Part shown: piece by piece, positions 24,755-40,762 of the stretch | Layout: the number at the start of each line of letters is the position of its first letter | Numbering within the stretch: position 1 is the first letter of the stretch | DNA from: a virus | Direction: 5' to 3' (one strand) | Virus record (IMG/VR): IMGVR_UViG_3300009159_006334 | Span: 1 to 52,868 of that record | DNA length: 52,868 nucleotides | Position numbers and translations under genes: made by a program | The notes under the pieces: model-generated | What the model was told of the DNA's origin: nothing | Database searches by the model: none | Seen by the model: only the letters and a program-made list of their open reading frames with translations

Positions 24755-25424
24755 CTTTCTAGAAGAAGGTGCTTATGTTGGTAATTTATATGATTTTATT
24801 GATGCAAATGAAATGACTCAAGTAGAGTCTAAAATTAAAGGTATTTGTAGTTATGTTGAATCAGATAGAGAGTCTATTTTAAAATGTAGATACGATTACG
24901 CACCTGAGCTTCAAAGCTATGAGCACTCAATACCTTTAAATCAAATTCTAGAAAGAGATTTATTTATAAAAGAGAATGATTTACGTACAGTACAAAAGTG
25001 GTACGAATTTTCTATGAGTAATGAATACCATCAGTACTTTTATAGCTTATCTAAGAAAATAGTAAATACTCTCTATCCAGATACCGTCATAGATGATAGC
25101 GATAGAATGGGAGATTTTACTCTATACGAAGATGATCATTTTATAAGTGATCATAAGGATGGTTACAGTAACGGTAGGTTATGTGTTTTAATTATGTATT
25201 TAAGTAGTGAGGCGGATTATAACAATGGCGGCGGTGAATTAATTATAACTACAAATTCAAGTACTCAACATACAGTAAAGCCTCTATTAGGTACTTTCAG
25301 TATTATGGATTTTTCAAAAAGTGATTTGATTCATGAAGTCAAAGCGGTAAAGAATGGATTTAAAAGATACTCTTTTATTAATTTTTTTAAAGTTAAAAAT
25401 GTAGAGAATAAAATAACAATATGA
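24726..25424 (+). CDS. 2OG-Fe(II) oxygenase (prolyl-hydroxylase-like)
   Basis: The 232-residue protein has the complete set of 2OG oxygenase residues. H143 and D145 lie in ISDHKDGYSNG, the distal H203 in DLIHEVKAV, and R214 in FKRYSFINFF. VLIMYLSSEADYNNGGGELII is the characteristic strand-turn of P4Hc-type enzymes. It probably hydroxylates an amino-acid side chain or a sugar-linked substrate. Its start lies inside the end of the preceding SDR gene (29 nt overlap) and its stop overlaps the next start (ATGA), so it is firmly part of the operon. Confidence 0.83.
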   Translation: MNSTPIPLSSFLEEGAYVGNLYDFIDANEMTQVESKIKGICSYVESDRESILKCRYDYAPELQSYEHSIPLNQILERDLFIKENDLRTVQKWYEFSMSNEYHQYFYSLSKKIVNTLYPDTVIDDSDRMGDFTLYEDDHFISDHKDGYSNGRLCVLIMYLSSEADYNNGGGELIITTNSSTQHTVKPLLGTFSIMDFSKSDLIHEVKAVKNGFKRYSFINFFKVKNVENKITI

Positions 25425-26395
25425 TAAATAAAAATTCCAAAATATTAATTACTGGTGGTTCGGGATTAGTGGGACAAAATTTAACCGAAAGATTACTTAG
25501 AGAGGGGTACACTAATCTAAGAGTTAACTTACATAAAAGAGGTGTTAGAACCGTTCATGATGGTGTTCATTACACGTATCATGATCTACAGGCGTATGAA
25601 GGATGTTTAACTGCAACAAAGGAAGTTGATATCGTATTTCATGCTGCTGCCTCTACATCTAATGCGGTTGATACTGTTGTTGACCCCTTAGCACATGTCA
25701 CACCAAATGTAGCAATGAATAACTTCCTAATTGATGCTAGTTGGAGAAATAAAATACAGCACTATATCTTTATTTCATCTAATACAGTTTATCCTCCAAA
25801 GGGTGATGAACCTGTTATTGAAACCGATTTCTTATTCGATGAGCCTTACCCTGTTTATTTTCCTGTGGGGTGGATGAAAAGGTATGCTGAAGTTCAGTGT
25901 GAGTTATACGGTAAGTATTTACCTGTTAAAATGAAATGTACTGTTGTTAGACCAGCTAACTTATTTGGCCCTCATGATAAATACGACTTTAATAAATGTC
26001 ATGTAACTCCAGCAACTATTCGCAAAGTAGCAGATAAAATGAATCCGATTCCTGTTTGGGGGGATGGAAGTGAGTTAAGAGATCTTTTATATATTGAAGA
26101 TTTTATAGAAGCATTACAAGTTATTATGGAAAATGAAGTTGAAATGTTTGAAGTATATAATGTTGGCTCAAATAAGGTATATTCAGTATTAGAAGTATTG
26201 GAGATAATGAAGGTAATTGCAAATTACAATGCTCCAACTGAATTTATTAGTGGTAAACCTTCTATGATACCGACACGTAAAATAAATTCAAATAAAATTA
26301 AAGAAAAACTAGGTTGGGAGGCAACAACAAGTCTTGAATCTGGTTTAAAAAACGCTTACAATTGGTATAAAGAAAATGAAAACGAATTCAAATAA
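25421..26395 (+). CDS. GDP-fucose-synthase-like SDR, catalytic Tyr position occupied by Val
   Basis: The 324-residue protein has GGSGLVG (12-18), VFHAAASTSN, and IFISSNTVYPPKGDEPV with the catalytic Ser. VVRPANLFGPHDKYDFNKCHVTPATIRK and VWGDGSELRDLLYIED are very close to the GDP-L-fucose synthase (GMER) substrate region. The active site reads Y145-F-P-V149-G-W-M-K153, so Val replaces Tyr at Lys minus 4. Either another Tyr serves as acid or the enzyme has changed function. The GMER-like body would fit supply of GDP-fucose to the fucosyltransferase-like proteins elsewhere in the window. Confidence 0.86.
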   Translation: MINKNSKILITGGSGLVGQNLTERLLREGYTNLRVNLHKRGVRTVHDGVHYTYHDLQAYEGCLTATKEVDIVFHAAASTSNAVDTVVDPLAHVTPNVAMNNFLIDASWRNKIQHYIFISSNTVYPPKGDEPVIETDFLFDEPYPVYFPVGWMKRYAEVQCELYGKYLPVKMKCTVVRPANLFGPHDKYDFNKCHVTPATIRKVADKMNPIPVWGDGSELRDLLYIEDFIEALQVIMENEVEMFEVYNVGSNKVYSVLEVLEIMKVIANYNAPTEFISGKPSMIPTRKINSNKIKEKLGWEATTSLESGLKNAYNWYKENENEFK

Positions 26396-27209
26396 AATAA
26401 CTAAAGGAATTGTATTTGGTGGTTGTTCTTTTACATGGGGACAGGGCCTTTACTACTATTCTAATTTAGAGACTTTAAAAGAACCTCTACCTGATTGCTA
26501 TGATAGTAAGTTAGTTACTGATGCTCATAAGCGATATGGTGCAACATTAAGATATCCAAGACTTGTGGCAAATCATTTTAATACTTTTGAAGTATGTATG
26601 TTACAAAACGGTGGATCCGAAGAAACTACTTTTGATTATTTGAGAAAAGTATTTGGCTTAGAAGAAAACTGTGATCATTTATTTACTGAATCATTATCTT
26701 TTAGTGAGCTTGAATATATTATAATACAAACTTCACAGCCTAATAGAAATTCTTTTACTTATACTTTAGATGGTAGTCAGCATTACTACAAAATAGATTC
26801 GCCAGAAACAAAAGACCTCTTTTACAAATGGCTAAGTCAAGAAAAAATAGAGTTTGAAGATTGGTACTCGAGTCATGTTAAAAGTGTATTTAATCAGTTA
26901 AAAGAAAACATGTTTTTTTACGAATCTAAAGGAATAAAGACATTATTTCTTAATTGGGAAGAAGATTATTCGTCTTTAATCAAAGAAGATACTTACATGT
27001 CAGAAAGATTTATATCTTTAGAGTATAGAGGTAAGAATTACGAATGTATTCGCCATTTAATGGATGAAAATAAACACTTAACCATTAATAGCGATTACGA
27101 ACATTTTGAAATACCTCCTACCGATCATCACCCTTCAAAAGAATGTCATGAAGTTATGGCTACAAACATTATAAAAAAAATAAACAACAATGGAAAAAAA
27201 CTTATATAA
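26376..27209 (+). CDS. SGNH-like hydrolase, GCSFTWG subtype
   Basis: The 277-residue protein begins after a short basic leader with IVFGGCSFTWGQG (G16, C17, S18). QNGGSEETTFDYL follows in the region of the block II/III residues. The C-terminal DHHPSKECHEVMATNII holds the Asp-His pair (around 250-252). It belongs to the same broad class as 18408-19148 and is a little longer. Its 5' end overlaps the fucose-synthase-like gene by 20 nt and its 3' end overlaps the TPP beta gene by 20 nt. Confidence 0.7.
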   Translation: MKTNSNKITKGIVFGGCSFTWGQGLYYYSNLETLKEPLPDCYDSKLVTDAHKRYGATLRYPRLVANHFNTFEVCMLQNGGSEETTFDYLRKVFGLEENCDHLFTESLSFSELEYIIIQTSQPNRNSFTYTLDGSQHYYKIDSPETKDLFYKWLSQEKIEFEDWYSSHVKSVFNQLKENMFFYESKGIKTLFLNWEEDYSSLIKEDTYMSERFISLEYRGKNYECIRHLMDENKHLTINSDYEHFEIPPTDHHPSKECHEVMATNIIKKINNNGKKLI

Positions 27210-27726
27210 AAATGCGCTCCTAAACTCAATGACTTATTTGGGTCAACAGCAAGATACTGTTTTCATAGGTCAACAAGTTCTTTGGCAAGGTAATCCAATG
27301 AGTACTACTCTAGTTGAAGTTCCTAAAGATAAATTAATTGAATTGCCAGTAATGGAAGAATCTCAAATGGGAATATCTTTAGGAATGGCTATGGCAGGTA
27401 AATTTGTTATAACCTTTTATCCAAGATGGGACTTTTTAATCTGTGCAACGAATCAATTAGTAAATCATGTAGATAAGATAGTGTTAATGAGCAAGGGTGA
27501 GTGGAAATCCAACATTATTATTCGCTTAGGTAAAGGATCGGATAAGCCTTTAGATCCAGGACATCAACATAAAGGAAACTACTTAGAAGAATTTAAATCT
27601 ATGTGTCCAAATATTACTTTTTGGAATTTAGATAAGCCGGATAATATTGAAGAAACTTATAAAACTGTTTATGCGTCGGGCGGGATGCATATTATTATAG
27701 AGTATCCTGAGCTATACTACGCTTAA
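27190..27726 (+). CDS. Thiamine-diphosphate enzyme beta subunit (E1-beta/transketolase-Pyr-like)
   Basis: The 178-residue protein matches the pyrimidine-binding half of E1-beta enzymes. ELPVMEESQMGISLGMAMAG (51-70) contains the Glu that activates TPP (E56 or E57), and NQLVNHVDKI (88-97) matches the NHAAK helix. It lacks the C-terminal transketolase-C domain normally present in E1-beta (about 325 residues). It should pair with the alpha protein at 20676-21308, nearly 6 kb upstream in the same operon. It ends the plus-strand block: its TAA is directly followed by the reverse-strand stop of 27727-28131. Confidence 0.82.
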   Translation: MEKNLYKNALLNSMTYLGQQQDTVFIGQQVLWQGNPMSTTLVEVPKDKLIELPVMEESQMGISLGMAMAGKFVITFYPRWDFLICATNQLVNHVDKIVLMSKGEWKSNIIIRLGKGSDKPLDPGHQHKGNYLEEFKSMCPNITFWNLDKPDNIEETYKTVYASGGMHIIIEYPELYYA

Positions 27727-28142: not shown

Positions 28143-29312
28143 TTACAAATAATTAAATTCAGTTAAATAATCATGTATGCTTAATCCTCTAATATAATCA
28201 ATACTTTTGATATAATCAACGAAATCGCTGTAAAAAATTGAATAATCTTTACTTAATTCGCTAGATAATCGCTTTGCCTTATCTTCTGGTAGTTTTTCTA
28301 AAGGCACTTCTCCTTTAAATAGACTTGCATGTAAGTATTCTGGCCAATACACGTAGTTGTGTTCTATTTTAAAGCCTTTTTGTGTGAAGTATTCGTAGAA
28401 ATTTCCTACATTATGCACATTTAAAGCACTTATTGTTTGAGTAACTCTTATATCAAAGGAATTTCCATTTAATAAGTCTAAATTAGTTTCAGTAACGTCG
28501 AACTTAGATGGATATCTTATATACTCATTTCTTTTTCCTAAGTCGTCGATAGATACGTTTAATTGAACGTTTTTAAATTGTTTCCACAGTTCTATAACTT
28601 TAGGCGTAATTAAAGTTAGATTAATGCTATATAATAACCTTATTTTGCTATTTAATCCCAAGTCGCAAAGTTTTTGTAGAAAGTACAGGTGTTCTTTAAT
28701 TAGCATCGGTTCTCCCCCGTTTATGTATATCTCCTCAAGGTTTTTCGCATTATCTAACAACTCATCGTACCATTTTATATCTTTGTACCAAGTACTAAAG
28801 CTCTTATCAATAGAATAGAAGCCAGATTGAAATTTTTCAGGCAATTCTGCTACATCTTCATTCCATTTGGTACTACTCATTGGATTACACGTTAAACATT
28901 TTAAGTTACAAACATTTCCAATCCGTAATTCAACTACTTTATAATCTAATTGCTTTAATGCACCGTCTTTATTGACCATTTCCTGAAGTTCTTCTAAGCT
29001 ATGTTGATACTTTTCATTTTCGTACATTCTTTTACTTATTCCTCCTGCTCTTTCTAATTTATAACAGCCTGCACACTCTTTAGGTTCTTCTCCACTTAAC
29101 ATTTTAACTCTTACGCCACAGAAGTTTTTTGAATTAGAGATTTGACTTAAAGTCTCTCGTCCTAGTATATTTAAATCTTCATTCTTAGAAAAGGAGAAGC
29201 CATTTGACATGTCTGATTGACAGCAGGGTGTAACAACGCCGTTAGGATGCGTTGCTAAGTGTATAAAAGGTAGTACACACGCTTTAGTCTTATTTAAATC
29301 TTGTTCCACCAC
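28143..29312 (-). CDS. Radical SAM protein with N-terminal twitch-like Cys cluster
   Basis: The 389-residue protein has core ligands C135, C139 and C142 in NVCNLKCLTC and the GGEP-type loop in EEIYINGGEPML. It also has IRLLYSINLTL and QLNVSIDDLGKRNEYIRYP in the barrel. N-terminal cysteines C12 (CVLPF), C30/C31 (TPCCQSD) and C80/C83 (ECAGCYK) form a likely auxiliary cluster site. It overlaps the end of the interrupted radical SAM gene upstream by 19 nt and is the last of five radical SAM genes in this operon. Substrate unknown. Confidence 0.88.
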   Translation of the reverse strand: MVEQDLNKTKACVLPFIHLATHPNGVVTPCCQSDMSNGFSFSKNEDLNILGRETLSQISNSKNFCGVRVKMLSGEEPKECAGCYKLERAGGISKRMYENEKYQHSLEELQEMVNKDGALKQLDYKVVELRIGNVCNLKCLTCNPMSSTKWNEDVAELPEKFQSGFYSIDKSFSTWYKDIKWYDELLDNAKNLEEIYINGGEPMLIKEHLYFLQKLCDLGLNSKIRLLYSINLTLITPKVIELWKQFKNVQLNVSIDDLGKRNEYIRYPSKFDVTETNLDLLNGNSFDIRVTQTISALNVHNVGNFYEYFTQKGFKIEHNYVYWPEYLHASLFKGEVPLEKLPEDKAKRLSSELSKDYSIFYSDFVDYIKSIDYIRGLSIHDYLTEFNYL

Positions 29313-29962
29313 TCAATTAATGCTTTATTTTGTGAAAATATCTTTTCGATAACCCCTTTATTATCTCTAAACGCATCTACAAATTCAATTCTTTGTTTAC
29401 CTGCTTTAATTCCTTCACGATAATCTGTAAACTGTTCTTCAAAAGTTTTTTTATTCTTTAAATTTAAAATTGCATCGTAATATATGCCTGTTTTAACATG
29501 GTCTAAGATATCATCTAAGATAGGCTCTAGAATTGGTCTAGGAATCATCAAAGGTGACATTATAATGGAGCTATCAAAAGCAAATGTCGTTTTAATTAAA
29601 GTATTTACATTTAACTCTTTAGATAGATCGTATAAATCCTTAATTGAAAATAACCCTGGAGATGTAATCGTTAAATCAAAGGTAATTCCGTATGAACCGT
29701 AAAGGTCGTTCAAAAATAAGCCCTGTTTAAAGTTATCTAACCAATTATCCCATTTAATTCCATGTCTAACATACTCTACTATCTCTCCTGTACCGTCTAT
29801 ACTCGCACAAACTTGTACGTCTTTAAAATGAGGTAGTAGATCGTAAAGGTTTTGACCTTTGAAACTAATTCTACTTAGGTTAGTGTTGTATCTAATTGTA
29901 ACATTCTTTGATTGACCATTATCAACTAAGTACTTCATTACTTCCCAATGTATGTCCCACAT
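29294..29962 (-). CDS. C-terminal part of a radical SAM gene interrupted by in-frame TGA
   Basis: This 222-codon frame is the direct, same-frame continuation of 29981-30595 after one TGA and six more codons (VGGEPL). It encodes the rest of the radical SAM barrel: MWDIHWEVMKYLVDNG, TIRYNTNLSRISF, and VQVCASIDGTGEIVEYVRHG. It has no cluster-binding cysteines of its own, so alone it cannot be a radical SAM enzyme. The ATG at 29962 could allow reinitiation. If the TGA were read through or corrected to TGG, a single protein of about 433 residues would result. Confidence 0.75.
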   Translation of the reverse strand: MWDIHWEVMKYLVDNGQSKNVTIRYNTNLSRISFKGQNLYDLLPHFKDVQVCASIDGTGEIVEYVRHGIKWDNWLDNFKQGLFLNDLYGSYGITFDLTITSPGLFSIKDLYDLSKELNVNTLIKTTFAFDSSIIMSPLMIPRPILEPILDDILDHVKTGIYYDAILNLKNKKTFEEQFTDYREGIKAGKQRIEFVDAFRDNKGVIEKIFSQNKALIEWWNKI

Positions 29963-29980
29963 TAAAGGCTCACCTCCTAC

Positions 29981-30595
29981 TCAATAAATCTCTTCTATTG
30001 AACCATCTTTTACTGCATTCCACAATTCAACCTCCGTAACTTCTTCTTTAAACTTTTTGAACTTGTCTTGGTTTATTTTACTATAAAAGGGTTCTCTTTT
30101 TTCATCAACTCCCATAATCTTTCTCTCTGCTTCCCATTGTGAACTTAGTAAATCACCACACATTCTACATTTAAAGTTACATAGATTACTTATCCTATAG
30201 TCAAATGAAATTGGTTTCATCGTTGTAAAGCCATTTTCATCTGTCTTTTCAAATATCTCGTCAACTTTATGTGGAAATAGCTTTTTAGTAAAATAGTCTT
30301 TATAGGTATTAATATTTAAAATCTGCTCATTACAGACTTGACATTGTGAAATAGATTCTCCCTGCATTATTCTCTTCCTAAGATCCATCATATAGGTACT
30401 ATTCCAATGTTCCTCTAATGATTTAGGATTAAATGTAGAATCAATGTCTGGATTCTCTAAGTCTAAGTATTGTTTAATATAATCAGCCTTTTCTCTACTA
30501 GCACAACATAAACGTCTTTCACCTTGAGGAGACAAATAAGTATGTGTCCAAGGTGCTACACAGAAGTAGGGACTTAGTTGGTCAGGTTTATTCAT
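29981..30595 (-). CDS. N-terminal part of a radical SAM gene interrupted by in-frame TGA
   Basis: The 204-residue product has the auxiliary cysteines C12 (FCVAPW), C30/C31 (LCCASRE) and C85/C88 (QCQVC), and the core triad C139, C143, C146 in CNFKCRMC. It stops at a TGA (29983-29981) right after SIEEIY, exactly where the reading EIYWVGGEPL is expected. A TGG-to-TGA change at one Trp codon explains it. The truncated product lacks most of the SAM barrel. It may be a true nonsense mutation, a sequencing error or programmed readthrough; the sequence alone cannot decide. Confidence 0.78.
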   Translation of the reverse strand: MNKPDQLSPYFCVAPWTHTYLSPQGERRLCCASREKADYIKQYLDLENPDIDSTFNPKSLEEHWNSTYMMDLRKRIMQGESISQCQVCNEQILNINTYKDYFTKKLFPHKVDEIFEKTDENGFTTMKPISFDYRISNLCNFKCRMCGDLLSSQWEAERKIMGVDEKREPFYSKINQDKFKKFKEEVTEVELWNAVKDGSIEEIY

Positions 30596-31808
30596 TAAAA
30601 AACTTAAAAAGTGAGGGATAGTCTTCTTTTATAATATCATATGTGCTTTCGTCTCTTACATAATCAAAGAAAGTAAAGTTTCTATACTCTGCTTTAATCT
30701 CATCGTCGCTATAATCCTTACTCCACATAAATCTTAGTACTGAATCAATATCGCTCTGATATCTTCCCCAGTCATAAATTCTCCACTTATCCTCTATTCT
30801 CTGTTTTTCACTATTAGGTAGTACTGCGATAGACATATGGTTAGGATAATGTATTATATTATTCCATATTTTAAATTCTGGAGTATTTTGCTTAACCCAA
30901 TCGTGAAATTCTGGTAATCTATAAGCATTTACCCAACTTATAGTATAGGTGTAATTAAATCCTACACCTGGTTTATTTAACTTCTTGTAAAAATCATAAT
31001 ACCTAAGGCAGTTAGCTTTAGTTTCTTCCCAAATACCATTCTTTCTCAAGTATTCGTACATCTTACCTATTCCGTCTACACTTAATCCAATTCCTACCGC
31101 TTTAAAATTAGTACAGATTTTGCTGAGTAATTCTTCGTTAAAAATAGAACCGTTAGAAGACATTGCTATATCAATATTCTTACTATATCCCTTCTCTACT
31201 AAAAACTCTAATACTGTTTTCCACTTCTCAATGTAAAAAGGTTCTCCTCCTACAATTTCAAGCCTTTTAACTTTTTGTCCCCAATCATCTAAGTTGTTCA
31301 AGAATATACTTTCACTACCTCCAGGTTGACCATAAGGCATTAAAAACTTATGTACATAGTCGTTAGTACCTACAGGAACTTCTGGTAGGTTATTTATCTC
31401 TTTTTGCCATTGAGTACTATGTGATGTACCGCAACTTCTACACTTTAAATTACAAGCATTACTTATAATAATTTGATAGTCTATTGGATACTCGTTAACA
31501 GTTTCTGTATTAACTTCAAGTCCTTGACTACTAAAAATATCATTGTAAATTTGTCTCTTACTCTTATAGCCATTAGACTCATCTACCCAACAAGTCTCGC
31601 ATCCTTTAGGTTTTTCTCCTTTTAAAAACTGTTCTCTCAAATCATTCATATAATCACTATGAAAAATATCTTTCACAGAATCATTTTGAACATAGAATAA
31701 CGAACCATCTTCCTTTTGGATATTGCCTTTGTAAATACAGCAGGGTCTAGCAGATCCATTTGGATCGTTAGAGAACCCTGCCCACGGTAATTTACATATA
31801 CTACTCAT
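30588..31808 (-). CDS. Radical SAM protein with N-terminal twitch-like Cys cluster
   Basis: The 406-residue protein has core cysteines C119, C123 and C126 in NACNLKCRSC. The SAM-binding loop is LEIVGGEPFYIEKW, followed by IAMSSNGSIF and GIGLSVDGIGKMYEYLRKNG. N-terminal ligands are C5 (ICKLPW), C23/C24 (RPCCIYKG) and C70/C73 (GCETCW). The layout is the same as in the interrupted neighbour. It overlaps that gene by 8 nt and the upstream radical SAM gene by 8 nt, so the three are translated together. Confidence 0.88.
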   Translation of the reverse strand: MSSICKLPWAGFSNDPNGSARPCCIYKGNIQKEDGSLFYVQNDSVKDIFHSDYMNDLREQFLKGEKPKGCETCWVDESNGYKSKRQIYNDIFSSQGLEVNTETVNEYPIDYQIIISNACNLKCRSCGTSHSTQWQKEINNLPEVPVGTNDYVHKFLMPYGQPGGSESIFLNNLDDWGQKVKRLEIVGGEPFYIEKWKTVLEFLVEKGYSKNIDIAMSSNGSIFNEELLSKICTNFKAVGIGLSVDGIGKMYEYLRKNGIWEETKANCLRYYDFYKKLNKPGVGFNYTYTISWVNAYRLPEFHDWVKQNTPEFKIWNNIIHYPNHMSIAVLPNSEKQRIEDKWRIYDWGRYQSDIDSVLRFMWSKDYSDDEIKAEYRNFTFFDYVRDESTYDIIKEDYPSLFKFFNE

Positions 31809-33372
31809 TGTTCTTAATAAAGTTTAACATTTCATCTTGTTGATCTGGTTCAATAAAGTCTTGAGCGCCTGGATTTGCCCATTGTGGGTTTAGTATCCAT
31901 CCTTCTTTCTTGGCTGTCTCCATTACTTCAGTAACATACTTGTTTGATTTGCCATCATCACCATCAACAAGTTCTTTAATAGGTGCTATATTTGTTATAG
32001 GAATTGAATCCCACCACTCCTTAAGCATAGGAAACGTTTCAATAAAGTTTTTATTTCTTCTAATATCGTATTGAGTATAAAAAGACTTAAAGTCTCTTTC
32101 TCTAGATTCTAAAGAAGAAGTGTGGTTATGTCCAGTTTCAATTTGTCTGATATAAGATACCATTCTCATCATTCCATCTCTTTCCCAATCTTGAAAATAG
32201 TTTGCACCTCCGTCATAGTTATCTAGTATCCACTTTTCAATATGATTTGCTCTCTCCTCTCTAACATGTTTAGGTAGGGTTACTATTGATTGAAAGGAAG
32301 GAAAGCGTAATATGTTAAATGAGCAATGAGGTGAAGGAGTTTTATACTCTCTTTTTAACCTTAGAATTTCATCCATAAAGTCAGTAATAGAAAATAAGCA
32401 TAATGCGTTAATTGTCATCATACAGTTTATAGATTTTACATTACCCTCCTTTAGCATCCTTTCTACATTACCTATCCACTTTTCCCACTTTAAACCGTCT
32501 CTGATATATTCAGCATGTGCACCAAAAGATTCACAGCTAGTATATAAATGAAAGCTTTTAATATTATGACTTGCTTTTAATAGTTCTTCAAATAATTCAT
32601 CTTTCTGTCCTAAATTAGAATTAACTGCAAAGTCAACTGCGCAATCTTTATGATTTTCCCACCATTTCATTAACTTCCAAAAGTCTTGAGACATAGTAGG
32701 TTCACCTCCTGTTACTCTTAGCTCTCTTAATGAGTGTTGTAACTCTGCTTCCCACCATTTCCAAAAAGCTTCGATATAAGGATTACCTTCGTTCTTTTTA
32801 CCGTAAGGTAATGAGTGAGATCCATCATGTTGAAAGGCTGCTGCACCGTCACTTACTAAGTTTTGATAGGCTCCATTCTTTTTAATATCGTTTTGCCATG
32901 TAGTACTAAAAGAAGCATTACAATAAGAGCATGCGAAATTGCAGTTAGGATCAAAAGCTATTTCTAGTGTTTTTAAATCTACATCTTCTGTCCAACTTAA
33001 TTTAGTTTTAGCTTCTAATAGCTCTTCGTCAGAATAGATAACGGATTTATAGACTCTATCTGAAACTTTATCAGGTCCTAGATCTTCTATCTTCCAACAG
33101 TAATCACATTCCTTAGGTCTTTCACCTTCTAGCATTTGCTTTCTAACAAGCTTCTTATATTGAGTATTGTGAATTGCTTTATAGCTCATAGCTACCTCTT
33201 CTAAAGGTATTTGGTGTGCTGGCGGATGGTGACAGCTAGCGTTTGTTCCATTGCCTAGCCAAATAGTTGCATTATACCATTTTGCTCCACAAAAAGATGG
33301 CGAAACAGAGTTAATTGCTCTATCTCTATACTCTGTATAGCTTTCGTTATCTTTTTTTGCGTAAACTCCCAT
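31801..33372 (-). CDS. Radical SAM protein, CHHP subtype
   Basis: The 523-residue protein is the longest radical SAM here. Core ligands are C144, C148 and C151 in NCNFACSYC; the loop is LRVTGGEPTMS. The N-terminus has C28 (FCGAKW), then C47-H48-H49-P (SCHHPPAHQIPLEEV) in place of the CC pair, and C89/C92 (ECDYCW). The Cys-His-His change suggests a different metal site. The long C-terminal extension (after about residue 400) ends acidic. It starts 3 nt after the stop of the LamG-like gene. Confidence 0.87.
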   Translation of the reverse strand: MGVYAKKDNESYTEYRDRAINSVSPSFCGAKWYNATIWLGNGTNASCHHPPAHQIPLEEVAMSYKAIHNTQYKKLVRKQMLEGERPKECDYCWKIEDLGPDKVSDRVYKSVIYSDEELLEAKTKLSWTEDVDLKTLEIAFDPNCNFACSYCNASFSTTWQNDIKKNGAYQNLVSDGAAAFQHDGSHSLPYGKKNEGNPYIEAFWKWWEAELQHSLRELRVTGGEPTMSQDFWKLMKWWENHKDCAVDFAVNSNLGQKDELFEELLKASHNIKSFHLYTSCESFGAHAEYIRDGLKWEKWIGNVERMLKEGNVKSINCMMTINALCLFSITDFMDEILRLKREYKTPSPHCSFNILRFPSFQSIVTLPKHVREERANHIEKWILDNYDGGANYFQDWERDGMMRMVSYIRQIETGHNHTSSLESRERDFKSFYTQYDIRRNKNFIETFPMLKEWWDSIPITNIAPIKELVDGDDGKSNKYVTEVMETAKKEGWILNPQWANPGAQDFIEPDQQDEMLNFIKNNE

Positions 33373-33375
33373 ATT

Positions 33376-33954
33376 TTATATTTTATGTAGAAAATTACAA
33401 TTTCCTGTTTTATCAAAACTCTTATTATGAATAAAAACATCAAAGTCATGCTCTGATATTACTTTACTATCTCTTGTTATTACTAATTTATATAAGATTA
33501 CATCTAGATAGTTTAAATTAAATCCGTTTTTAGGAAAATTACCTGCTCCAAATACTAAATGAGAATTTTTATCGCTGTCTAGTTTACTTTCCAGGGTAAG
33601 GTTATATACCGTAACTCCATTAAGAGAAATTCCTAATTGATTCTTAACCTTAACTATTTTTAAATCATACTTTATTCCAGGTTCCCATATATAATCAATA
33701 AACTTACAGATTGTTTCACCATTACAAGTATAGAGAAAGGATATTCCGTATTGCTCAAAATCAAAGCCTAAGTAGGAAGGTAGTTTTGCAAAAAGACTAG
33801 ATTTTTCTGTAATCGGTTTAATTAATTCAAAAACTAAATGAAACATAAAATTTCCCTCGTAATCAAAAATCTTATTAGCAGGATTATCTATAAAATTATC
33901 TACCAGGTTATCAGGCCACATTGCCCATGGATTACCCTTTTCTATTCTTAACAT
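33376..33954 (-). CDS. LamG/concanavalin A-like beta-sandwich protein
   Basis: The 192-residue protein shows a run of beta strands typical of a concanavalin A-like fold. These are NFMFHLVFELI, SYLGFDFEQYGISFLYTC, KYDLKIVKVKNQLGISLNGV and YLDVILYKLVI. There is no catalytic signature of a glycoside hydrolase, so sugar or peptide binding is more likely. It lies between the two CHHP-type radical SAM genes, overlapping the upstream one by 23 nt. Two nearby GT7 proteins also carry LamG-like domains. A shared scaffold or substrate-binding role across the operon is an inference. Confidence 0.6.
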   Translation of the reverse strand: MLRIEKGNPWAMWPDNLVDNFIDNPANKIFDYEGNFMFHLVFELIKPITEKSSLFAKLPSYLGFDFEQYGISFLYTCNGETICKFIDYIWEPGIKYDLKIVKVKNQLGISLNGVTVYNLTLESKLDSDKNSHLVFGAGNFPKNGFNLNYLDVILYKLVITRDSKVISEHDFDVFIHNKSFDKTGNCNFLHKI

Positions 33955-35320
33955 CTTCGTATAAGTTTTTTAATTCGGGGAAAGTTTCTAAAAAATTTGT
34001 ACCTCTTCTAGTATCGTGTTCGTCAACAAATAAAACAAAATCGTGTTTATTTTTTTCAACATCAAAACTATCATCTTCTGATATTGCATAGTCGTATATT
34101 CTTTTTATTTTTTGAACTTCTATATCAGAAAATCCAATATTACTATGTTTAAATTCGGGTGTTGTATAGTAAAATGCTTTCTTAGCTGCTTCTAATATTA
34201 ATTCTTTATGTTTTTTATCAAGTATTTTAACCGATTGGTGAGTTGGAAACCTCAGATAGGAAGTATCTAACTGAATTGGCGATACCCAATAGCGTTCAGT
34301 CGTTTGGTATTTTTGTTTTAATTCAAAAACCTTATCAATTAATTTATCGTAACTAAATACTGACATTACATTAAAAGTAGCCATTACAACTATAGAAACA
34401 GTGGGTAGCTCTGATAAGATATACTCTACGTTTTCTATAAATAAGTTAAAGTCTAATCCGTTTCTAATATATTCTGCTTGAGATCCCCAAGCTTCACAAG
34501 ATGTAAAAATTATAAACTCATTTACTCTTCCTTTCTCTATAATACTCTTAGCTACTTTTACAAACTTCTCAATTAAAACTTTAGGAGAGCCTAAGTTTGA
34601 ATTTATAGAAAGATTCAAGTTTCTATTAGGGAATTCTGTTGTATCTATGAATTCTAATACCTTCCATGTATCTTTTGATAGTAATGGTTCTCCACCAGTA
34701 ATCCTAAAGGTATGCAAATCGTTGTATAAATCAGGCCACCAATTCCAGAAAGATTCTACGTACGGATTCTCATCTGAATTTTTATAGGGGAGTTGGCTTA
34801 ATCTTTTATAATAGTCTATATCATTAAAATTTGTAGAAGTGGGATATGCACCATACTTTTCTATTTCCTCCATCCACTTAGACGAAAACATTGGACTACA
34901 GTATGAGCACTTAAAATTACAAGTATTAGCGAAACTTACTTCTACGTACTTTGGATTATAATTTGCTTTCCAATCAAGGCCTTTAATTTCTTCCATAAAA
35001 GGTAAGGACCAAGGTTCAGAAGATTTAAAAACTCTATCTGAAAATGAATTAGATGTTTTTTCTACATTCCAGCAATAATCACACTCGGCAGGCTTTTTAC
35101 CTTCTAACATCTCCTTTCTCTTTAACTTTTTAAAGTTAGTATTATGCAGAGCTGTGGGATTTACTCTTATTTCTTCGAGAGGTATTTTATGTGGTCCTGG
35201 ATGGTGGCATGAATGTGTCATTCCATTATGTAGATGCATAGTAACTTGCGTCCACTTTGCTAAACAGAAGCCACAGCCTTTACTATCTAATTCCTTTTTT
35301 ATATCATGTAAATGCTCCAT
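33932..35320 (-). CDS. Radical SAM protein, CHHP subtype
   Basis: The 462-residue protein has core cysteines C134, C138 and C141 in TCNFKCSYC and the loop FRITGGEPLLSKDTW. N-terminal residues C16/C19 (GCGFCLAKW), C38-H39-H40-P (SCHHPGPHKIPLEEI) and C80/C83 (ECDYCW) mirror those of 31801-33372. This makes the pair a distinct subgroup. The C-terminus has an NFLETFPELKNL tail that the sister protein also shows (NFIETFPMLKEW). Its start overlaps the GT7-LamG stop (TAATG). Confidence 0.87.
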   Translation of the reverse strand: MEHLHDIKKELDSKGCGFCLAKWTQVTMHLHNGMTHSCHHPGPHKIPLEEIRVNPTALHNTNFKKLKRKEMLEGKKPAECDYCWNVEKTSNSFSDRVFKSSEPWSLPFMEEIKGLDWKANYNPKYVEVSFANTCNFKCSYCSPMFSSKWMEEIEKYGAYPTSTNFNDIDYYKRLSQLPYKNSDENPYVESFWNWWPDLYNDLHTFRITGGEPLLSKDTWKVLEFIDTTEFPNRNLNLSINSNLGSPKVLIEKFVKVAKSIIEKGRVNEFIIFTSCEAWGSQAEYIRNGLDFNLFIENVEYILSELPTVSIVVMATFNVMSVFSYDKLIDKVFELKQKYQTTERYWVSPIQLDTSYLRFPTHQSVKILDKKHKELILEAAKKAFYYTTPEFKHSNIGFSDIEVQKIKRIYDYAISEDDSFDVEKNKHDFVLFVDEHDTRRGTNFLETFPELKNLYEDVKNRKG

Positions 35321-36753
35321 TATAATACTACGTTTATCATTTTAGCTTTAGGAGTTAACTCTTCAATACTCACTAAAGTATATTTTAAATTATTCATACC
35401 ATCTGCTTTGTAATCTATCTTACCCTGCTGCATACCCATTATATAACGATATTCATTTTTGGCTGTTGTCTCTCCTTTTGCCCATTTTCCGTCCACAAAT
35501 CCTTCGTCAATATGATCTAAACAATCCATTCTACCTGGAGTTCTATGAGGTACGATTGTATGTGGTACTTTAATAGTTTCTTCTAATCTTTCGCAATTAG
35601 AAACAAGGCCATTATTGTTATTTCCTGTATTATCTTTTAGTAGCTTGTCGTTTAGAAAATCATAATCTAAAACAGCACCCTCTACTTTATTATTAAATGA
35701 AGATACGATTTCTTCTTGAGTTAAACACCTATTCCAAATTATTAACTTACCTATATCTCCTTTAAAATACTTAGCAGGATCGTTTTCATTAGCAGAAGGA
35801 GACATTCCTAAGTAATAATCTACATCGTCGTACCTTTTTAAGCCTCCTAAATAGGAAGCTGGGGAGTCAGTTCCAGTTCCACTTGCTGCTTGAGATTCTA
35901 TTCCGTTTAAATACGTATGTATTTTTTTACTATTTGCATCTACAGTAAATGTAACCCAGGTCCATTGATTTTCATATCTTTTCATCCACTGGTAAAGAGG
36001 TTTACTGAATATATCCCATAGCATCACCGTATAGGCTCTTGAATTATTATACGAAATACCGTAATCATATCCAGGTCTTCTAAAAATTGGATATTCTACG
36101 TATCTTTTATCTTCAGCTCCTATTAAATAAATTGGCATTTTCTTTTCTTGATGAAAAGCTCTAACTAATACACTTACCGTATGAGATTTATTAGTTAATT
36201 CATTTAAGGTTGGACTAGATGGAATTTTTACATGCGAATTATCACCATTAAATCTTAAAAAAGGTTTTGTTTTTTCGTAATTAACATAATCTATATTTGC
36301 ATAGCCTTCTAGTACACATCTCCAAAATAAATCATCATCTTCCATTCCCCAATCCCAATAGTCATTTGAATATCCATTAGTTCTTTCTACTTGCTCTTTG
36401 CTAAAAATTACAGCACCACCAAAGTAATCGGCATACTTTAAGTGGTAATTAGTTTTTGAAATGTGAATTGCAATATGTCTAGGATTATCTTCTGGAAAAG
36501 AATAGTCACAATTATCGTCTTCTGGAATCATGTCAATATCATGCCATACTATGTAGTCACAACCATCCTTAAACGCTTGTTCAGCAGCTATGTTTTTCAT
36601 AGCACCTCTATTAAACAGCTTATCATCTATTTGATGGCCAAAATACATACAGTATTCTATGCCTCTTTCTTCTAAAAAGTTTCCTACTCGAGGTATAAAC
36701 TGCTCTAAGTGAGCTTCTCTATTTCTATATGGTACGCAAACTCCTAATTTCAT
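35320..36753 (-). CDS. GT7 (beta-1,4-galactosyltransferase-like) fused to LamG-like domain, copy B
   Basis: The 477-residue protein has an N-terminal GT7 domain. It contains LGVCVPYRNRE, LFNRGAMKN (47-53), VWHDIDMIPED (metal site D72/D74), YFGGAVIFSKEQ, and NGYSNDYWDWGMEDDD (126-141). These are the hallmark motifs of animal-type beta-4-galactosyl/GalNAc transferases. A LamG-like domain follows (about 165-350: YLGGLKRYDDVDYYLGMS, FKGDIGKLIIWNRCLTQEEI). A further C-terminal domain (about 350-477) has VDGKWAKGETTAKNEYRY. The fusion suggests an enzyme that holds its acceptor. Its ATG overlaps the stop of copy A (ATGA). Confidence 0.85.
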   Translation of the reverse strand: MKLGVCVPYRNREAHLEQFIPRVGNFLEERGIEYCMYFGHQIDDKLFNRGAMKNIAAEQAFKDGCDYIVWHDIDMIPEDDNCDYSFPEDNPRHIAIHISKTNYHLKYADYFGGAVIFSKEQVERTNGYSNDYWDWGMEDDDLFWRCVLEGYANIDYVNYEKTKPFLRFNGDNSHVKIPSSPTLNELTNKSHTVSVLVRAFHQEKKMPIYLIGAEDKRYVEYPIFRRPGYDYGISYNNSRAYTVMLWDIFSKPLYQWMKRYENQWTWVTFTVDANSKKIHTYLNGIESQAASGTGTDSPASYLGGLKRYDDVDYYLGMSPSANENDPAKYFKGDIGKLIIWNRCLTQEEIVSSFNNKVEGAVLDYDFLNDKLLKDNTGNNNNGLVSNCERLEETIKVPHTIVPHRTPGRMDCLDHIDEGFVDGKWAKGETTAKNEYRYIMGMQQGKIDYKADGMNNLKYTLVSIEELTPKAKMINVVL

Positions 36754-38162
36754 ATTCCTACATTTACGTGTACTTGATTTTCAATATGGGTATAGTTATG
36801 TACTTTATATTCACAATCACCCAGCCCATCTACGGTATGGTCTCCAAATCCTTTTGCTATTTCGTTATAATACCTTAATTGATTATATCTAGTATTAATA
36901 TCCTTCCATCCTCCTCCTGTAAATCCATTCTCAGCATGCGATATTAATTTAAACTTACTTTCTCTTCTAAAAGGAATATCTAGTATCTTACCCTCTTTAA
37001 AAGTATAAGCAACGATTTCACATTCAGTCATATACCCTCTATTACCTCCTGCAAGATCCATTAATTTATAATCCTTTACAAATTTAGAATCGTAATATAG
37101 TTTCAATAAATGAGCAGATTTGTAATTACCAAAATCTTGAGTTAATCCAAAAAATTTATTATCTGAAATCTCTTTAATCTCTTCTTCTTCTAATATTGTA
37201 TTATATACAGCAAAAGTATACAACAGTCCTTTAAAGAAATTAGAAGTTTTATCTCTGTGAGGATATCCACAGCCTAAGTAGAAATACTTTTCTGCTTTAT
37301 AATCTAATAACTCATTATACTCTGTTGAACCTACTAATTCTCCATCTTGAAACATTGTTATTATTCTTGTTCCTGGATTAATTGTAAGACAGATGTTAGT
37401 TCTATAAGTTGGTTTAATATCAGAAGTAATGTATATAACTTCTTTGTTACTATTATAAGCTGTAAACTTATATTTTTGATAAGAGTCATACGTTATAGCA
37501 AAATCTAAGCCTGGAATTGAAAATATAGTAAACTCATCGTCAAACTTATCATGATCTAAAGTTATTTCGTCTGGATAGAAGGTTATAAAAATAGAAGTTT
37601 CTTTAGTAAGGTCTATGTTATTATGACACTGTACGTAAGCATTATGTCCATTAAACTTTAGAGCGGCTGTATTACTGTAAGCCATCTTTAGTATTTTCTT
37701 ATCTAACGGAACGTGACTTATCTTACATCGATAAAGTAAATCATCATCTTCGAATCCCCATCCCCAATATTTGTTTGAAAATCCATTGATTAATTCAAAC
37801 ACTTCTATTGGAAATAAAGTTACACCTCCAAAGTAAGTATCAAATATACTACGATTTATTCCTTCATTAGATTCAAAACCAGTAGCAAGGTGTATAGGAA
37901 TGTCAGAATATGAATAATCTACGTCAATAGGAATCATATCTATGTCATGAAAAACTAAGTAGTCGCAGTGAAGAGCTTTAGCATAAGTATAACCTATGTT
38001 TAATAACTTTCCTCTATTAAACAACGAAGCATTATCTTGTTCTACAATAATTAATTCATAGGAAATACCTTTACTATCTAAGTAGTTACTTATAGCTTTT
38101 TTAAAGACTCCAAAATGCTCAAAGCGATCTCTATATGGTACGATTACTCCTAGCTTATGCAT
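36750..38162 (-). CDS. GT7 (beta-1,4-galactosyltransferase-like) fused to LamG-like domain, copy A
   Basis: The 470-residue paralog of 35320-36753 has GT7 motifs VPYRDRFEHF, LFNRGKLLNIG (48-57), VFHDIDMIP (D73/D75), YFGGVTLFP and NGFSNKYWGWGFEDDD (126-141). The last two are closer to the animal consensus than in copy B. The LamG-like part has YFYLGCGYPHRDK and FFKGLLYTFAVYNTILEEEEI. The C-terminal region includes GGGWKDINTRYNQLRYY, parallel to copy B. It would transfer a UDP-sugar to a terminal GlcNAc-like acceptor; donor and acceptor are inferred from family only. It overlaps the 60-residue gene by 8 nt. Confidence 0.85.
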   Translation of the reverse strand: MHKLGVIVPYRDRFEHFGVFKKAISNYLDSKGISYELIIVEQDNASLFNRGKLLNIGYTYAKALHCDYLVFHDIDMIPIDVDYSYSDIPIHLATGFESNEGINRSIFDTYFGGVTLFPIEVFELINGFSNKYWGWGFEDDDLLYRCKISHVPLDKKILKMAYSNTAALKFNGHNAYVQCHNNIDLTKETSIFITFYPDEITLDHDKFDDEFTIFSIPGLDFAITYDSYQKYKFTAYNSNKEVIYITSDIKPTYRTNICLTINPGTRIITMFQDGELVGSTEYNELLDYKAEKYFYLGCGYPHRDKTSNFFKGLLYTFAVYNTILEEEEIKEISDNKFFGLTQDFGNYKSAHLLKLYYDSKFVKDYKLMDLAGGNRGYMTECEIVAYTFKEGKILDIPFRRESKFKLISHAENGFTGGGWKDINTRYNQLRYYNEIAKGFGDHTVDGLGDCEYKVHNYTHIENQVHVNVGI

Positions 38163-38337
38163 CTTTCTTACTTATTGTATGAAATTCTGATAAGTAAAAT
38201 TGAACTCTTTCGCTCCATTCGTTTTTATCTATTTCTTCAAACCATAAAGTTAGAGAGTCTAAAGAATTAGCGATTTTTTCTAACGCTTTTACTTTTCTAG
38301 TTTCTAAAAGGACTGCGTCTTTTTGTTCTTGTGTCAT
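38155..38337 (-). CDS. Small helical phage protein (60 aa), unknown function
   Basis: The 60-residue product starts MTQEQKDAVLLETRKVKALE and has IANSLDSLTLWFEEIDKNEW, ending with QFYLSEFHTISKKD. It looks like a helical hairpin with conserved Trp and acidic residues. I have seen this type in T4-like marine phages next to glycosyltransferases, without known function. It lies 1 nt after the GT2-like gene and overlaps the GT7 copy A gene. A small partner protein for one of the enzymes is possible. Confidence 0.6.
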   Translation of the reverse strand: MTQEQKDAVLLETRKVKALEKIANSLDSLTLWFEEIDKNEWSERVQFYLSEFHTISKKDA

Positions 38338-38338
38338 A

Positions 38339-39178
38339 TTATATTGAAATTATTATGTTTAGTAATTTATCCCAGTTTTTATAGCTCCAAGCTCCAACTT
38401 CTTCTATCATAAAGCGAGGATCGGTTATATCAATCTTAAATCTAGACTTTGCTAACTCTCTATACATTTTTCTGTATTCTTCTGAGTATGCATTTTCTCT
38501 ATTTGTATTTGCTACTGCTCTAATTCTTTCACCGCAAGTAGCATCCCATTTAAAATGGTTTACTATAACGTTATATTTTTTATAAGGAGCAATTAGCGGA
38601 TGATTCCAACCTTGCCATTTCCAAGTCGTATGTCCATCTATCTTTGCATAATGTTGGCCAGGAGTTAATTCTACATATCCTTTCATTATACAAATTTTAT
38701 TTGGACAAGCTCCCGATAAAGGATATCTAAAGAATCCTGCTAAAGGAAATTGCTCAAAGATATCTTCTTTTGGCTGTAGCTCTGGAAATATTCCGTTTGG
38801 TCCTATTCTATCAACAAATCCTCCTCTTACTAAATCCCATCCGTACTCTTCACAGTCCTTTATAATATATTCTAGAGATTCAGGATATTCATGAAATTCA
38901 TCATCATCGGCAACAATCCACCAATCTTCAGGATGCTGATTTTTTATTTCATTGTACATGCTAGTTACAGTCTCCCAATTGTACTTTTCAGCAGTACGTC
39001 TAAAAACTATTTTTGCTTTTGGAAACTCCTCTACTATCTTTTCTACTTCTTTAGAAAGCTCTTTATCTTCCCAATCATAAATACCTACACAAATCTCATC
39101 TACTATATTAGAATAGTAAGTTAAGAAATGCCACAATATATTCGTTCTAGATCCAACTACAGTTGCTAATCTAATCAT
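38339..39178 (-). CDS. Glycosyltransferase, GT2/GT92-like
   Basis: The 279-residue protein starts with a GT-A-type strand (IRLATVVGSRTNILWHFLTYY) and VDEICVGIYDWEDKEL. It has the metal-binding D91-D92-D93 in WWIVADDDEFHEYP and a terminal VIVNHFKWDATCGERIRA motif. The DDD motif and the HFKWD tail, which may bind the donor phosphate, resemble GT92/DUF-type glycosyltransferases. It overlaps the methyltransferase gene upstream by 4 nt (ATGA). Sugar and acceptor unknown. Confidence 0.75.
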   Translation of the reverse strand: MIRLATVVGSRTNILWHFLTYYSNIVDEICVGIYDWEDKELSKEVEKIVEEFPKAKIVFRRTAEKYNWETVTSMYNEIKNQHPEDWWIVADDDEFHEYPESLEYIIKDCEEYGWDLVRGGFVDRIGPNGIFPELQPKEDIFEQFPLAGFFRYPLSGACPNKICIMKGYVELTPGQHYAKIDGHTTWKWQGWNHPLIAPYKKYNVIVNHFKWDATCGERIRAVANTNRENAYSEEYRKMYRELAKSRFKIDITDPRFMIEEVGAWSYKNWDKLLNIIISI

Positions 39179-39903
39179 CTTTTATTAATTATAGTTATAC
39201 CGCTTGAAGATGGTTTATCTGTAAAGGTATGAAAATTAAATAGATTTACCAAATTCCATTTAGTATTTTTTTGCAATTCCTTAATAAATCTTACAGGTCC
39301 ATCGAAAGAATGATGATCTTTCTTAATATCTTCCGAAACTATTAGAGAGTTAGAATAATTTTCATCGGAATCATGTAGTATTACTACACCTTTCGGGGCT
39401 AAAAGTTTCGAATAGAGTTCAAAATCGAGTTTTACTCCTTCATATGAGTGGTCTCCGTCAATAAACAGCACATCTATCTTTATATCTTGCGGCACAAAGA
39501 AGTTATAGTAGGCATTTTCGGAAGTCTCTTTAATAAAACGAGGAGTAAACATATACCTGAAGAAAGAATTCTCATCTTCTAGATCGTTATACCCTCCAAC
39601 TCCGTTACAAGCATCTACCAGGTAAGTAGCTCCAATATCTCCCCAGTTATGATCCCCGTTTCCTTCAAAAATCCCTTGCCTGTACAAGTCTCTTCGTGCA
39701 ATAGTCATAATTCTAGGAATAAATCCACCGCCTGATCCTATACATACGCAGTTTTTTGCTCGCATATGCTGAATGATAGAATATACTATCAATCCATCAC
39801 CCATATGTAAGTCAGTTGCTCCATGAGTCCATCTATAAGGTACCGGAGTATTCTCATTATTGGTAATATGTCTTCTTACGTAGTCAGAATTAAGTATGTC
39901 CAT
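39175..39903 (-). CDS. Class I SAM methyltransferase (Methyltransf_24-like)
   Basis: The 242-residue protein has CVCIGSGGGFIPRIM (52-66) as SAM motif I. DVLFIDGDHSYEGVKLDFEL (about 147-166) is the hallmark of this group, and GVVILHDSDENY follows. Such proteins methylate sugars or aminosugars and are frequent in O-antigen clusters. It overlaps the DXD glycosyltransferase-like gene by 14 nt and is the second gene of the operon. An N-terminal WTHGATDLHMGDG segment may contribute to substrate binding. Confidence 0.83.
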   Translation of the reverse strand: MDILNSDYVRRHITNNENTPVPYRWTHGATDLHMGDGLIVYSIIQHMRAKNCVCIGSGGGFIPRIMTIARRDLYRQGIFEGNGDHNWGDIGATYLVDACNGVGGYNDLEDENSFFRYMFTPRFIKETSENAYYNFFVPQDIKIDVLFIDGDHSYEGVKLDFELYSKLLAPKGVVILHDSDENYSNSLIVSEDIKKDHHSFDGPVRFIKELQKNTKWNLVNLFNFHTFTDKPSSSGITIINKR

Positions 39904-40762
39904 GATTCAATAAATTTAAGACATTTTTACTTAAGTTCGGAAACAATTTATAAAAAGTTTCTAATATGTTTTGTTTACATTCTACATAGTATCCATGACT
40001 TTCATCGAAAGCTCTTCTTTTATCTGGTCCGAAGTGAGTTGCATAGGTGTATTCTTCCTTTTTAGGGAAGATTCCAAGCCCGTTTTCATACCATTCGTCT
40101 TTATGACATACTAAGGTCTCATTAAAAAGGTATTTGTGCTCTAAATTCATCTCTTTTATAAGCTGCCATAGTAGTTTCTGCTCACAAAAGACCATGTTTA
40201 ACCCGTTTATCTCCCCGCCTTTCTTCGTCATAACATTCATCCATTCTAAAGCGGTTTGAGCATAGATTCCCCTTAGCTTTTCATTGTTAATATAGAGAAA
40301 AGCTACGTTGATAGCTTTATCATCCCAATCGTAGTTAGGAAGCTCCATATACTTACGTAATTTATAAGGTTCCGGGTAGTGTTTGGTGGTAACTTCCATA
40401 AAATTACCTATAATATCTAATTTCCAGTAATCTTCAGGTATAAATCTCTGTTTTATGAATAGATCTAAGTCAATTACCGCAAACGGTGCAGTTAATTCGT
40501 TTATAACCTTTAATTTAGCGGAAGCCCAGAAAGCATCTTCGTTGAATTCGTATTGTTTTCTATCTAGTACTTCAGTATTAACATTATCCCATAGATCTAG
40601 GATTCCCATGTCTGAGATTAGTTGCTTACTGTGTGAATCACAGTATAGGTTGGTAGTATGTTCGGGATAAAAGTGCTTCCATGTAAGGATGGAAGTATAT
40701 AAGAATGCCTTCTCTAAATCAGAGTGAAAGGACATATGTTCAGCACACCATACAACATTCAT
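39890..40762 (-). CDS. DXD glycosyltransferase-like protein (DUF6734-like)
   Basis: The 290-residue protein has an N-terminal GT-A-like strand layout. FWASAKLKVINELTAPFAVIDLDLFI carries D98-x-D100 as the metal motif. FNETLVCHKDEWYENGLG and YTYATHFGPDKRR follow near the end. This resembles DUF6734 proteins, which are probably glycosyltransferases. It leads the large minus-strand operon that runs to 27727. A TATTTATT motif is 12 nt upstream, directly after the fibre-block gene ending at 40783. Confidence 0.7.
   Translation of the reverse strand: MNVVWCAEHMSFHSDLEKAFLYTSILTWKHFYPEHTTNLYCDSHSKQLISDMGILDLWDNVNTEVLDRKQYEFNEDAFWASAKLKVINELTAPFAVIDLDLFIKQRFIPEDYWKLDIIGNFMEVTTKHYPEPYKLRKYMELPNYDWDDKAINVAFLYINNEKLRGIYAQTALEWMNVMTKKGGEINGLNMVFCEQKLLWQLIKEMNLEHKYLFNETLVCHKDEWYENGLGIFPKKEEYTYATHFGPDKRRAFDESHGYYVECKQNILETFYKLFPNLSKNVLNLLNHGHT

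Follow-up and report, generated by a model that had tools for sequence, protein, structure and literature searches.

The stretch of DNA analysed here, referred to as the window, corresponds to a single IMG/VR virus record (IMGVR_UViG_3300009159_006334; 52,868 bases), and its main feature is an array of five tandem genes on the minus strand (28143-35320) for radical S-adenosylmethionine (SAM) enzymes, in each of which a predicted auxiliary iron-sulfur (Fe-S) domain precedes the radical SAM core. The array is part of a module that is conserved among uncultured phages, and counterparts of its paralogues are found in predatory bacteria. With a probability of roughly 0.55, we propose that these enzymes would tailor a glycan made by the phage genes around them. 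The tail sheath gene of the window (1393-3510) shares 48% identity with the sheath of Flavobacterium phage immuto; this T4-type sheath and the virus record assign the window to a T4-type phage, in line with the phage origin held by an earlier note made from the letters alone.

Radical SAM enzymes with the auxiliary domain in front

Five clustered radical SAM genes, one of them interrupted, had been placed in this interval by the earlier note, and their tandem arrangement and positions proved exact. The scores below refer to NF033640, the NCBIfam model "twitch domain-containing radical SAM protein" (N_Twi_rSAM), which has a curated cut-off of 170 bits.

33932-35320, minus strand: rSAM-A, group A, core member; 462 amino acids (aa); C19/C38/C80/C83, core C134/C138/C141; 326.7 bits
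31801-33372, minus strand: rSAM-B, group B; 523 aa; C28/C47/C89/C92, core C144/C148/C151; 307 bits
30588-31808, minus strand: rSAM-G, group G; 406 aa; C5/C23(24)/C70/C73, core C119/C123/C126; 296 bits; PF13186 at residues 5-74
29294-30595, minus strand: rSAM-D, group D, interrupted; 204 + 222 aa, pieces 29981-30595 and 29294-29962; first Cys 12; 306.4 bits as one gene with one TGA
28143-29312, minus strand: rSAM-E, group E; 389 aa; C12/C30(31)/C80/C83, core C135/C139/C142; 321 bits; PF13186

All five genes pass the model (296-327 bits, the interrupted rSAM-D when read whole), and they carry the CxxxCxxC and GGEP motifs of the radical SAM superfamily. The cysteines follow one order throughout, namely C-x17/18-C(C/H), CxxC and then the CxxxCxxC core with GGEP; the first Cys is always followed by x-[AL]-[PK]-[FW], and the second site reads CC or CHH. 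An alignment of 399 proteins, phage and bacterial, has Cys at the four N-terminal positions in 100, 97.9, 100 and 99.2% of the non-gap rows and at the three core positions in 100%, a conservation that excludes a chance origin of the N-terminal pattern. The order described in the earlier note thus stands for all five proteins, while the cysteines that are general to the N-terminus number, by alignment, only four. Where the second site reads CC, the canonical GX4C spacing favours the first Cys as the ligand and MAFFT aligns the second.

Several comparisons identify the N-terminal segment as an auxiliary domain. The SPASM profile PF13186 matches it in full length in three of the five genes, and in a profile built from six intact proteins, residues 6-99 align to residues 163-258 of BtrN, that is, behind the BtrN core. 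The four phage cysteines then fall on BtrN C169, C187, C232 and C235 (numbers counted from the printed alignment), which we take to be the auxiliary-cluster ligands. The auxiliary cluster of BtrN is known to have four Cys ligands (PMC9012708). An AlphaFold2 model of rSAM-A (predicted local distance difference test score, pLDDT, 94.3; predicted template modelling score, pTM, 0.91) has a beta-hairpin (25-29/34-36) that separates C19 from C38, and helices ahead of both C80 and C83, which is the order of elements given for twitch domains (PMC6231123). The C..C..CxxC pattern with its hairpin between the first two cysteines is that of a twitch domain, except that it lies N-terminal and not C-terminal to the core; of the SPASM motif with its seven cysteines and two clusters, the first four cysteines alone are conserved. 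These comparisons indicate an auxiliary Fe-S domain of the twitch type placed ahead of the core, as the earlier note had claimed for the ligands. Two clusters would most likely be bound by each enzyme: the [4Fe-4S] cluster that cleaves SAM, at CxxxCxxC, and a single auxiliary one, at the four N-terminal cysteines.

The whole-protein fold is shared with predicted structures of uncultured-phage proteins (TMq 0.80). Among structures of the Protein Data Bank, the best matches are SkfB and SuiB (E 4e-5 to 6e-4) at TM-scores of about 0.3, low values which we ascribe to a sequential aligner meeting a rearranged domain order and which make this search uninformative on the protein as a whole. The arrangement itself is not new, since NF033640 already names it. 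A close match to a characterised family would have spoken against the earlier interpretation; a named family is indeed matched, but no biochemistry was found for N_Twi_rSAM, and nothing on function turned up in the limited open-access literature, searched both by family name and for twitch or SPASM domains at the N-terminus.

Other family assignments were tried and rejected. Scores for prokaryotic viperin (pVip) reach at most 41.5 bits in NCBIfam (cut-off 180) and at most 42.7 bits in PADLOC, the heme synthase AhbD gives 29.9 bits against a cut-off of 500, MoaA membership is ruled out by the cut-offs, and the BtrN dehydrogenase family differs in domain order and shares no full-length homology. 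These values bear on the idea that the array consists of general auxiliary metabolic genes (AMGs) or antiviral-like genes, for heme synthesis, a viperin-like activity or Fe-S functions, unrelated to glycans. The weak AhbD and viperin matches could be read in its favour, as could a survey of Baltic AMGs in which 261 phage genes were called ahbD, with inferences termed speculative (PMC9301287). The scores nevertheless lie far under the cut-offs, against 296-327 bits for NF033640, and the neighbouring genes encode sugar enzymes, so that we regard this explanation as highly improbable.

rSAM-D is interrupted at codon 205 by a single in-frame TGA (29981-29983) that immediately precedes GGEP and may be a genuine nonsense codon or a fault of assembly. 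A reading of TGA as a sense codon is not supported: 8 of 54 open reading frames (ORFs) in the window end in TGA, and no interruption occurs in the 14 further group D proteins used.

Two more genes, which bring the count to seven in 53 kb as the earlier note had it, follow a variant pattern:

14356-15429, minus strand: divergent N-Twi-like radical SAM protein, C-x4-C variant; NF033640 67.6 bits
13282-14355, minus strand: divergent N-Twi-like radical SAM protein, C-x4-C variant; NF033640 58.8 bits

Their first and second cysteines are as in the array, C-x4-C-P replaces CxxC (a variant common to all 13 sequences whose fourth position is Leu), and the core has G-D-P instead of GGEP. With scores under the cut-off of 170, they are classed by sequence as relatives and not members of N_Twi_rSAM.

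A conserved module close to the tail genes

Upstream of the array, and between its first two members, lie the genes of the module, preceded by a DUF6734 gene and, further off, by a fibre-like gene:

41811-43583, minus strand: tail-fibre-like repeat protein with a C-terminal S74 chaperone domain; PF13884; eight genes upstream of rSAM-A
39890-40762, minus strand: DUF6734 protein preceding the module; PF20508
39175-39903, minus strand: MT39, Methyltransf_24 protein, start of the fixed module; PF13578; 67 loci
38339-39178, minus strand: GT38, GT2-like glycosyltransferase; weak PF13704 match under cut-off; 69 loci
38155-38337, minus strand: sm65, 60 aa, acidic, probably helical, conserved; no Pfam match; 59/83 first loci
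36750-38162, minus strand: GT7 plus laminin-G fusion, second copy; PF13733, PF02709, PF13385
35320-36753, minus strand: GT7 galactosyltransferase-type plus laminin-G fusion (GT7L); PF02709, PF13733, PF13385
33376-33954, minus strand: laminin-G-fold protein (LamG) between rSAM-A and rSAM-B; overlaps rSAM-A by 23 bases; homologues in 77/83 first loci

In about 190 IMG/VR loci, the order is MT39, GT38, sm65 (65 aa in the module at large), GT7L, GT7L, rSAM-A, LamG and then 0-7 further radical SAM genes, and in some contigs the module ends at the sheath gene. The first loci were chosen by rSAM-A, and loci were refetched independently with MT39 and GT7L as baits; the last GT7L has a radical SAM gene at most two genes away in 57/57 testable loci fetched with MT39 and in 50/53 fetched with GT7L, near-duplicate contigs included. 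An S74 fibre gene occurs upstream of the first radical SAM gene in 79/131 testable loci, a count that again takes in near-duplicates, mostly at a distance of eight genes, or about 6.5 kb.

The laminin-G fold was recognised through Foldseek matches to neurexin and laminin LG domains (model pLDDT 73, moderate). A laminin-G-like stretch, assigned by sequence resemblance and without a Pfam match, is fused to rSAM-A in four loci (L078, L080, L086 and L089 in our numbering), with two copies in L080. A possible role for sm65 is that of a module regulator or chaperone. The fibre gene of the window is one of several genes between 41811 and 49927 (minus strand) for long proteins of SASYALSSSYAV-type repeats, of which one has the terminal S74 chaperone domain.

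A near-identity search for phages with the array returned no match. Across 50,697 phage records, the tblastn matches of rSAM-G were confined to Vibrio phages of the KVP40 type, with an identity of about 24%; rSAM-A, the laminin-G protein and GT7 gave no match, so that these searches brought up no cultured phage that carries the module. Close relatives of rSAM-A (53-56% identity) also occur on two binned contigs (L111, Flavobacteriales; L118, Pelagibacterales), which are probably phage contigs misplaced in metagenome-assembled genomes. Neither the conserved module near the tail genes nor the set of paralogues common to phages and predatory bacteria appears to have been described in the limited open-access literature searched.

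Orthologue groups shared with predatory bacteria

A tree of 228 phage proteins resolves distinct groups, with A first in the array and recurring orders A; AC; ABDEG; and AFHIMK. The order in the window is A-B-G-D-E, and groups A, B, D, E and G co-occur in five further phage contigs (L028, L030, L036, L038 and L051); rSAM-E joins group E solely in the combined phage and bacterial tree (support 0.986). On a chromosomal contig of the Bacteriovoracaceae (L108), a single run of genes beside obgE comprises relatives of all five groups (B, D, E, G and A), with supports of 0.92-0.97 for D, E and G and a weak 0.43 for B. Because the set recurs as orthologue groups, including in L108, the five genes are not recent local duplicates. 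The earlier note had taken their density in a phage to suggest a multistep radical modification pathway. Such a pathway fits, since five distinct, mostly old groups recur as a set, but the density is neither specific to phages nor unprecedented: the T4-like marine contig TARA_ERS488813_N000010 is reported to have 12 radical SAM genes (Nishimura 2017, PMC5332604), and the Bdellovibrionota genomes tested have 5-33 N_Twi matches each. Of 114 genomes sampled across this phylum, 27 encode A-type proteins.

The bacterial neighbourhoods point in two directions. One is towards polysaccharides: Halobacteriovorax-type N_Twi loci hold DegT aminotransferases, epimerases, GT1 and GT2 glycosyltransferases, carbamoyltransferases, GDSL esterases, a transketolase and an ABC-2 exporter, and by gene content they resemble O-antigen-like polysaccharide loci that closely parallel the phage island. 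The other is towards proteins. PqqD-type peptide chaperones lie at most two genes from A- or B-type radical SAM genes in nine Bdellovibrionota loci (9/414 near genes vs 3/508 far), with scores under the equivalog cut-offs. An S74 protein of 144-152 aa lies beside A- or B-type genes in five bacterial loci, and in 10/10 genomes tested one small S74 ORF shares a contig with N_Twi-like genes. The loci for these comparisons were partly picked for such neighbours; in four genomes picked for PqqD alone, a small S74 ORF is also present, 0.2 to about 11 kb from N_Twi-like genes. Flagellins flank A-type genes in three distinct loci (L101, L117 and L119, of which L320 is a repeat), an association that we treat as a lead only.

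The protein neighbours underlie the main rival explanation, by which the array would perform a radical modification, like that of ribosomally synthesised and post-translationally modified peptides (RiPPs), on a filament protein, be it the S74 fibre of the phage or, in bacteria, flagellin or the small S74 protein. The S74 fibre upstream of the array in phages also fits, yet such proximity counts for little, since S74 fibres are common in tailed phages. A RiPP maturation system in the phage was rejected as a candidate: the partner with a RiPP recognition element (RRE) or of PqqD type, present in the nine bacterial loci, has no counterpart among ORFs of the phage loci at E 0.01, and the module contains no Cys-rich or repetitive short precursor, sm65 being free of Cys. 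The Halobacteriovorax-type loci, moreover, are themselves polysaccharide loci. On balance, modification of a filament protein seems doubtful, although it deserves more weight than the other alternatives.

Small S74 proteins of about 150 aa (L125, 11260-12180; L131, 11304-12150; L304; L311) adjoin PqqD and an A-type radical SAM gene and have a conserved N-terminus, YDFGxIxEFNLQ.IEEE.LN.S.YLDVFAGSD; the three together form a candidate compact substrate system of predatory bacteria. Bdellovibrionota proteins of 716-834 aa also match the N-Twi profile (L101, 9989-12493; L297, 1474-3624), and the one in L101, between two flagellin genes, resembles a fusion of two radical SAM proteins.

The sugar island and a proposed glycan tailoring

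The array is embedded in an island of about 38 kb with sugar and radical SAM genes, bounded by the fibre-like genes (at positions of at least 41.8 kb) and the sheath gene. In immuto, a cultured relative, the same interval between fibre and sheath contains small genes only, over about 2.4 kb. Several enzymes of the island, two of which are halves of a thiamine pyrophosphate (TPP) enzyme, can be assigned:

16659-18212, minus strand: NodU-type carbamoyltransferase; PF02543, PF16861
19161-20132, plus strand: NAD-dependent nucleotide-sugar epimerase/dehydratase
20134-20679, plus strand: RmlC-type dTDP-sugar 3,5-epimerase; PF00908; TIGR01221 under cut-off
20676-21308, plus strand: TPP-enzyme half, E1-alpha/transketolase-like; PF00676, PF02775
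23822-24754, plus strand: nucleotide-sugar epimerase/dehydratase; PF01370 in three members of A6
25421-26395, plus strand: nucleotide-sugar epimerase/dehydratase; PF01370 in three members of A6
27190-27726, plus strand: TPP-enzyme second half, pyrimidine-binding; PF02779

Further enzymes include a cytidylyltransferase-like protein, an adenosine phosphosulfate (APS) kinase, GT25 and FkbM proteins, 2-oxoglutarate (2OG) oxygenases and methyltransferases.

The proposal that the array tailors the glycan of this island is drawn mainly from the close parallel with the Halobacteriovorax-type loci. The glycan would be made by the epimerases, the RmlC-type enzyme, the split TPP enzyme, the carbamoyltransferase, the GT7 and GT2 transferases and the methyltransferases. 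Each radical SAM paralogue would take one hydrogen from a sugar via the 5'-deoxyadenosyl radical, so that the sugar would be dehydrogenated, epimerised or dehydrated while the auxiliary cluster relays electrons. The laminin-G domains may bind either the glycan or the molecule that carries it. As carrier we favour the tail fibre, whose gene lies just upstream, and place a glycan of the host surface second; a glycosylated fibre would reconcile the sugar and the filament-protein lines of evidence.

The same chemistry might instead act on an O-antigen-like surface polysaccharide of the host, which the phage would alter in the course of infection so as to exclude superinfecting phages or to switch receptors. 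That phages can encode serotype conversion is well established, and the Halobacteriovorax-type loci contain ABC-2 exporters and glycosyltransferases; of the phage proteins scanned, however, none was recognised as an exporter, a flippase or a polymerase, and the island sits inside the late structural block, where immuto has its small genes. We consider a host polysaccharide an unlikely target.

Several points weigh against glycan tailoring itself. Twitch homology to BtrN, which oxidizes an aminocyclitol, does not imply sugar chemistry. The function of SPASM and twitch enzymes is not predictable from sequence (PMC6231123). The PqqD neighbours (nine loci) and flagellin neighbours (three loci) would fit a protein substrate equally, many bacterial A-type genes stand alone among unrelated genes that are not sugar genes, and the glycan genes of the phages vary outside the fixed module.

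As a broader and more tentative idea, to which we would give less than even odds, phages and predators may share a radical SAM assembly line, in which modular N-terminal-twitch enzymes, with A leading and others added or swapped, edit the sugars of fibres or cell surfaces docked by laminin-G domains; this would be a new type of surface-glycan diversification. For N_Twi_rSAM, the module, the fusions and the bacterial counterparts reduce the possibilities to a testable hypothesis, namely that the family edits a surface glycan or a filament protein by radical chemistry. They also point to candidate partners and to genera that can be cultivated (Halobacteriovorax, Bacteriovorax). Virome radical SAM genes labelled as AhbD or Fe-S AMGs could be rechecked against N_Twi_rSAM.

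Other proteins of the island show features of their own. The two TPP-enzyme halves lie 6 kb apart and flank sugar genes on opposite sides; both are found again in relatives, and a Halobacteriovorax locus (L321) also has a split transketolase. An 847-aa protein (21269-23812, plus strand) has two stretches resembling the 7020-8063 protein (24-25% identity), and is apparently a fused duplicate of a sugar-island family. A 620-aa protein (11352-13214, minus strand) ends in an intein/Hint module (residues about 467-620, ending VHNK), just ahead of which is a second Hint-like stretch (about 291-466, ending AHN before a Cys); possibly two Hint modules stand in tandem behind an ATP-grasp-like part, the latter recognised by eye only.

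Comparison with known systems

The genes of TARA_ERS488813_N000010 are described as Fe-S related, and no array, module or glycan link is noted in the text consulted (PMC5332604). BtrN (2-deoxy-scyllo-inosamine dehydrogenase) resembles the phage enzymes in its four auxiliary-cluster cysteines and a helix motif, which align with their N-terminal domain, whereas its twitch domain follows the core, the similarity of the cores is weak and the context is different. SkfB and SuiB, the twitch and SPASM RiPP maturases, share the radical SAM core fold but have a C-terminal auxiliary domain and an N-terminal RRE. To our knowledge, the virion glycosylation systems of mycobacteriophages include no radical SAM tailoring. 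They are like the phage island in that phage-encoded glycosyltransferases act on the virion, there on capsid and tail tube (Freeman 2023, cited in PMC12619734). With N_Twi_rSAM, the array shares five full-length matches over the cut-off and the order of twitch domain first and core second; to that family definition the phages add the array, the laminin-G/GT7 module and the A-B-D-E-G set.

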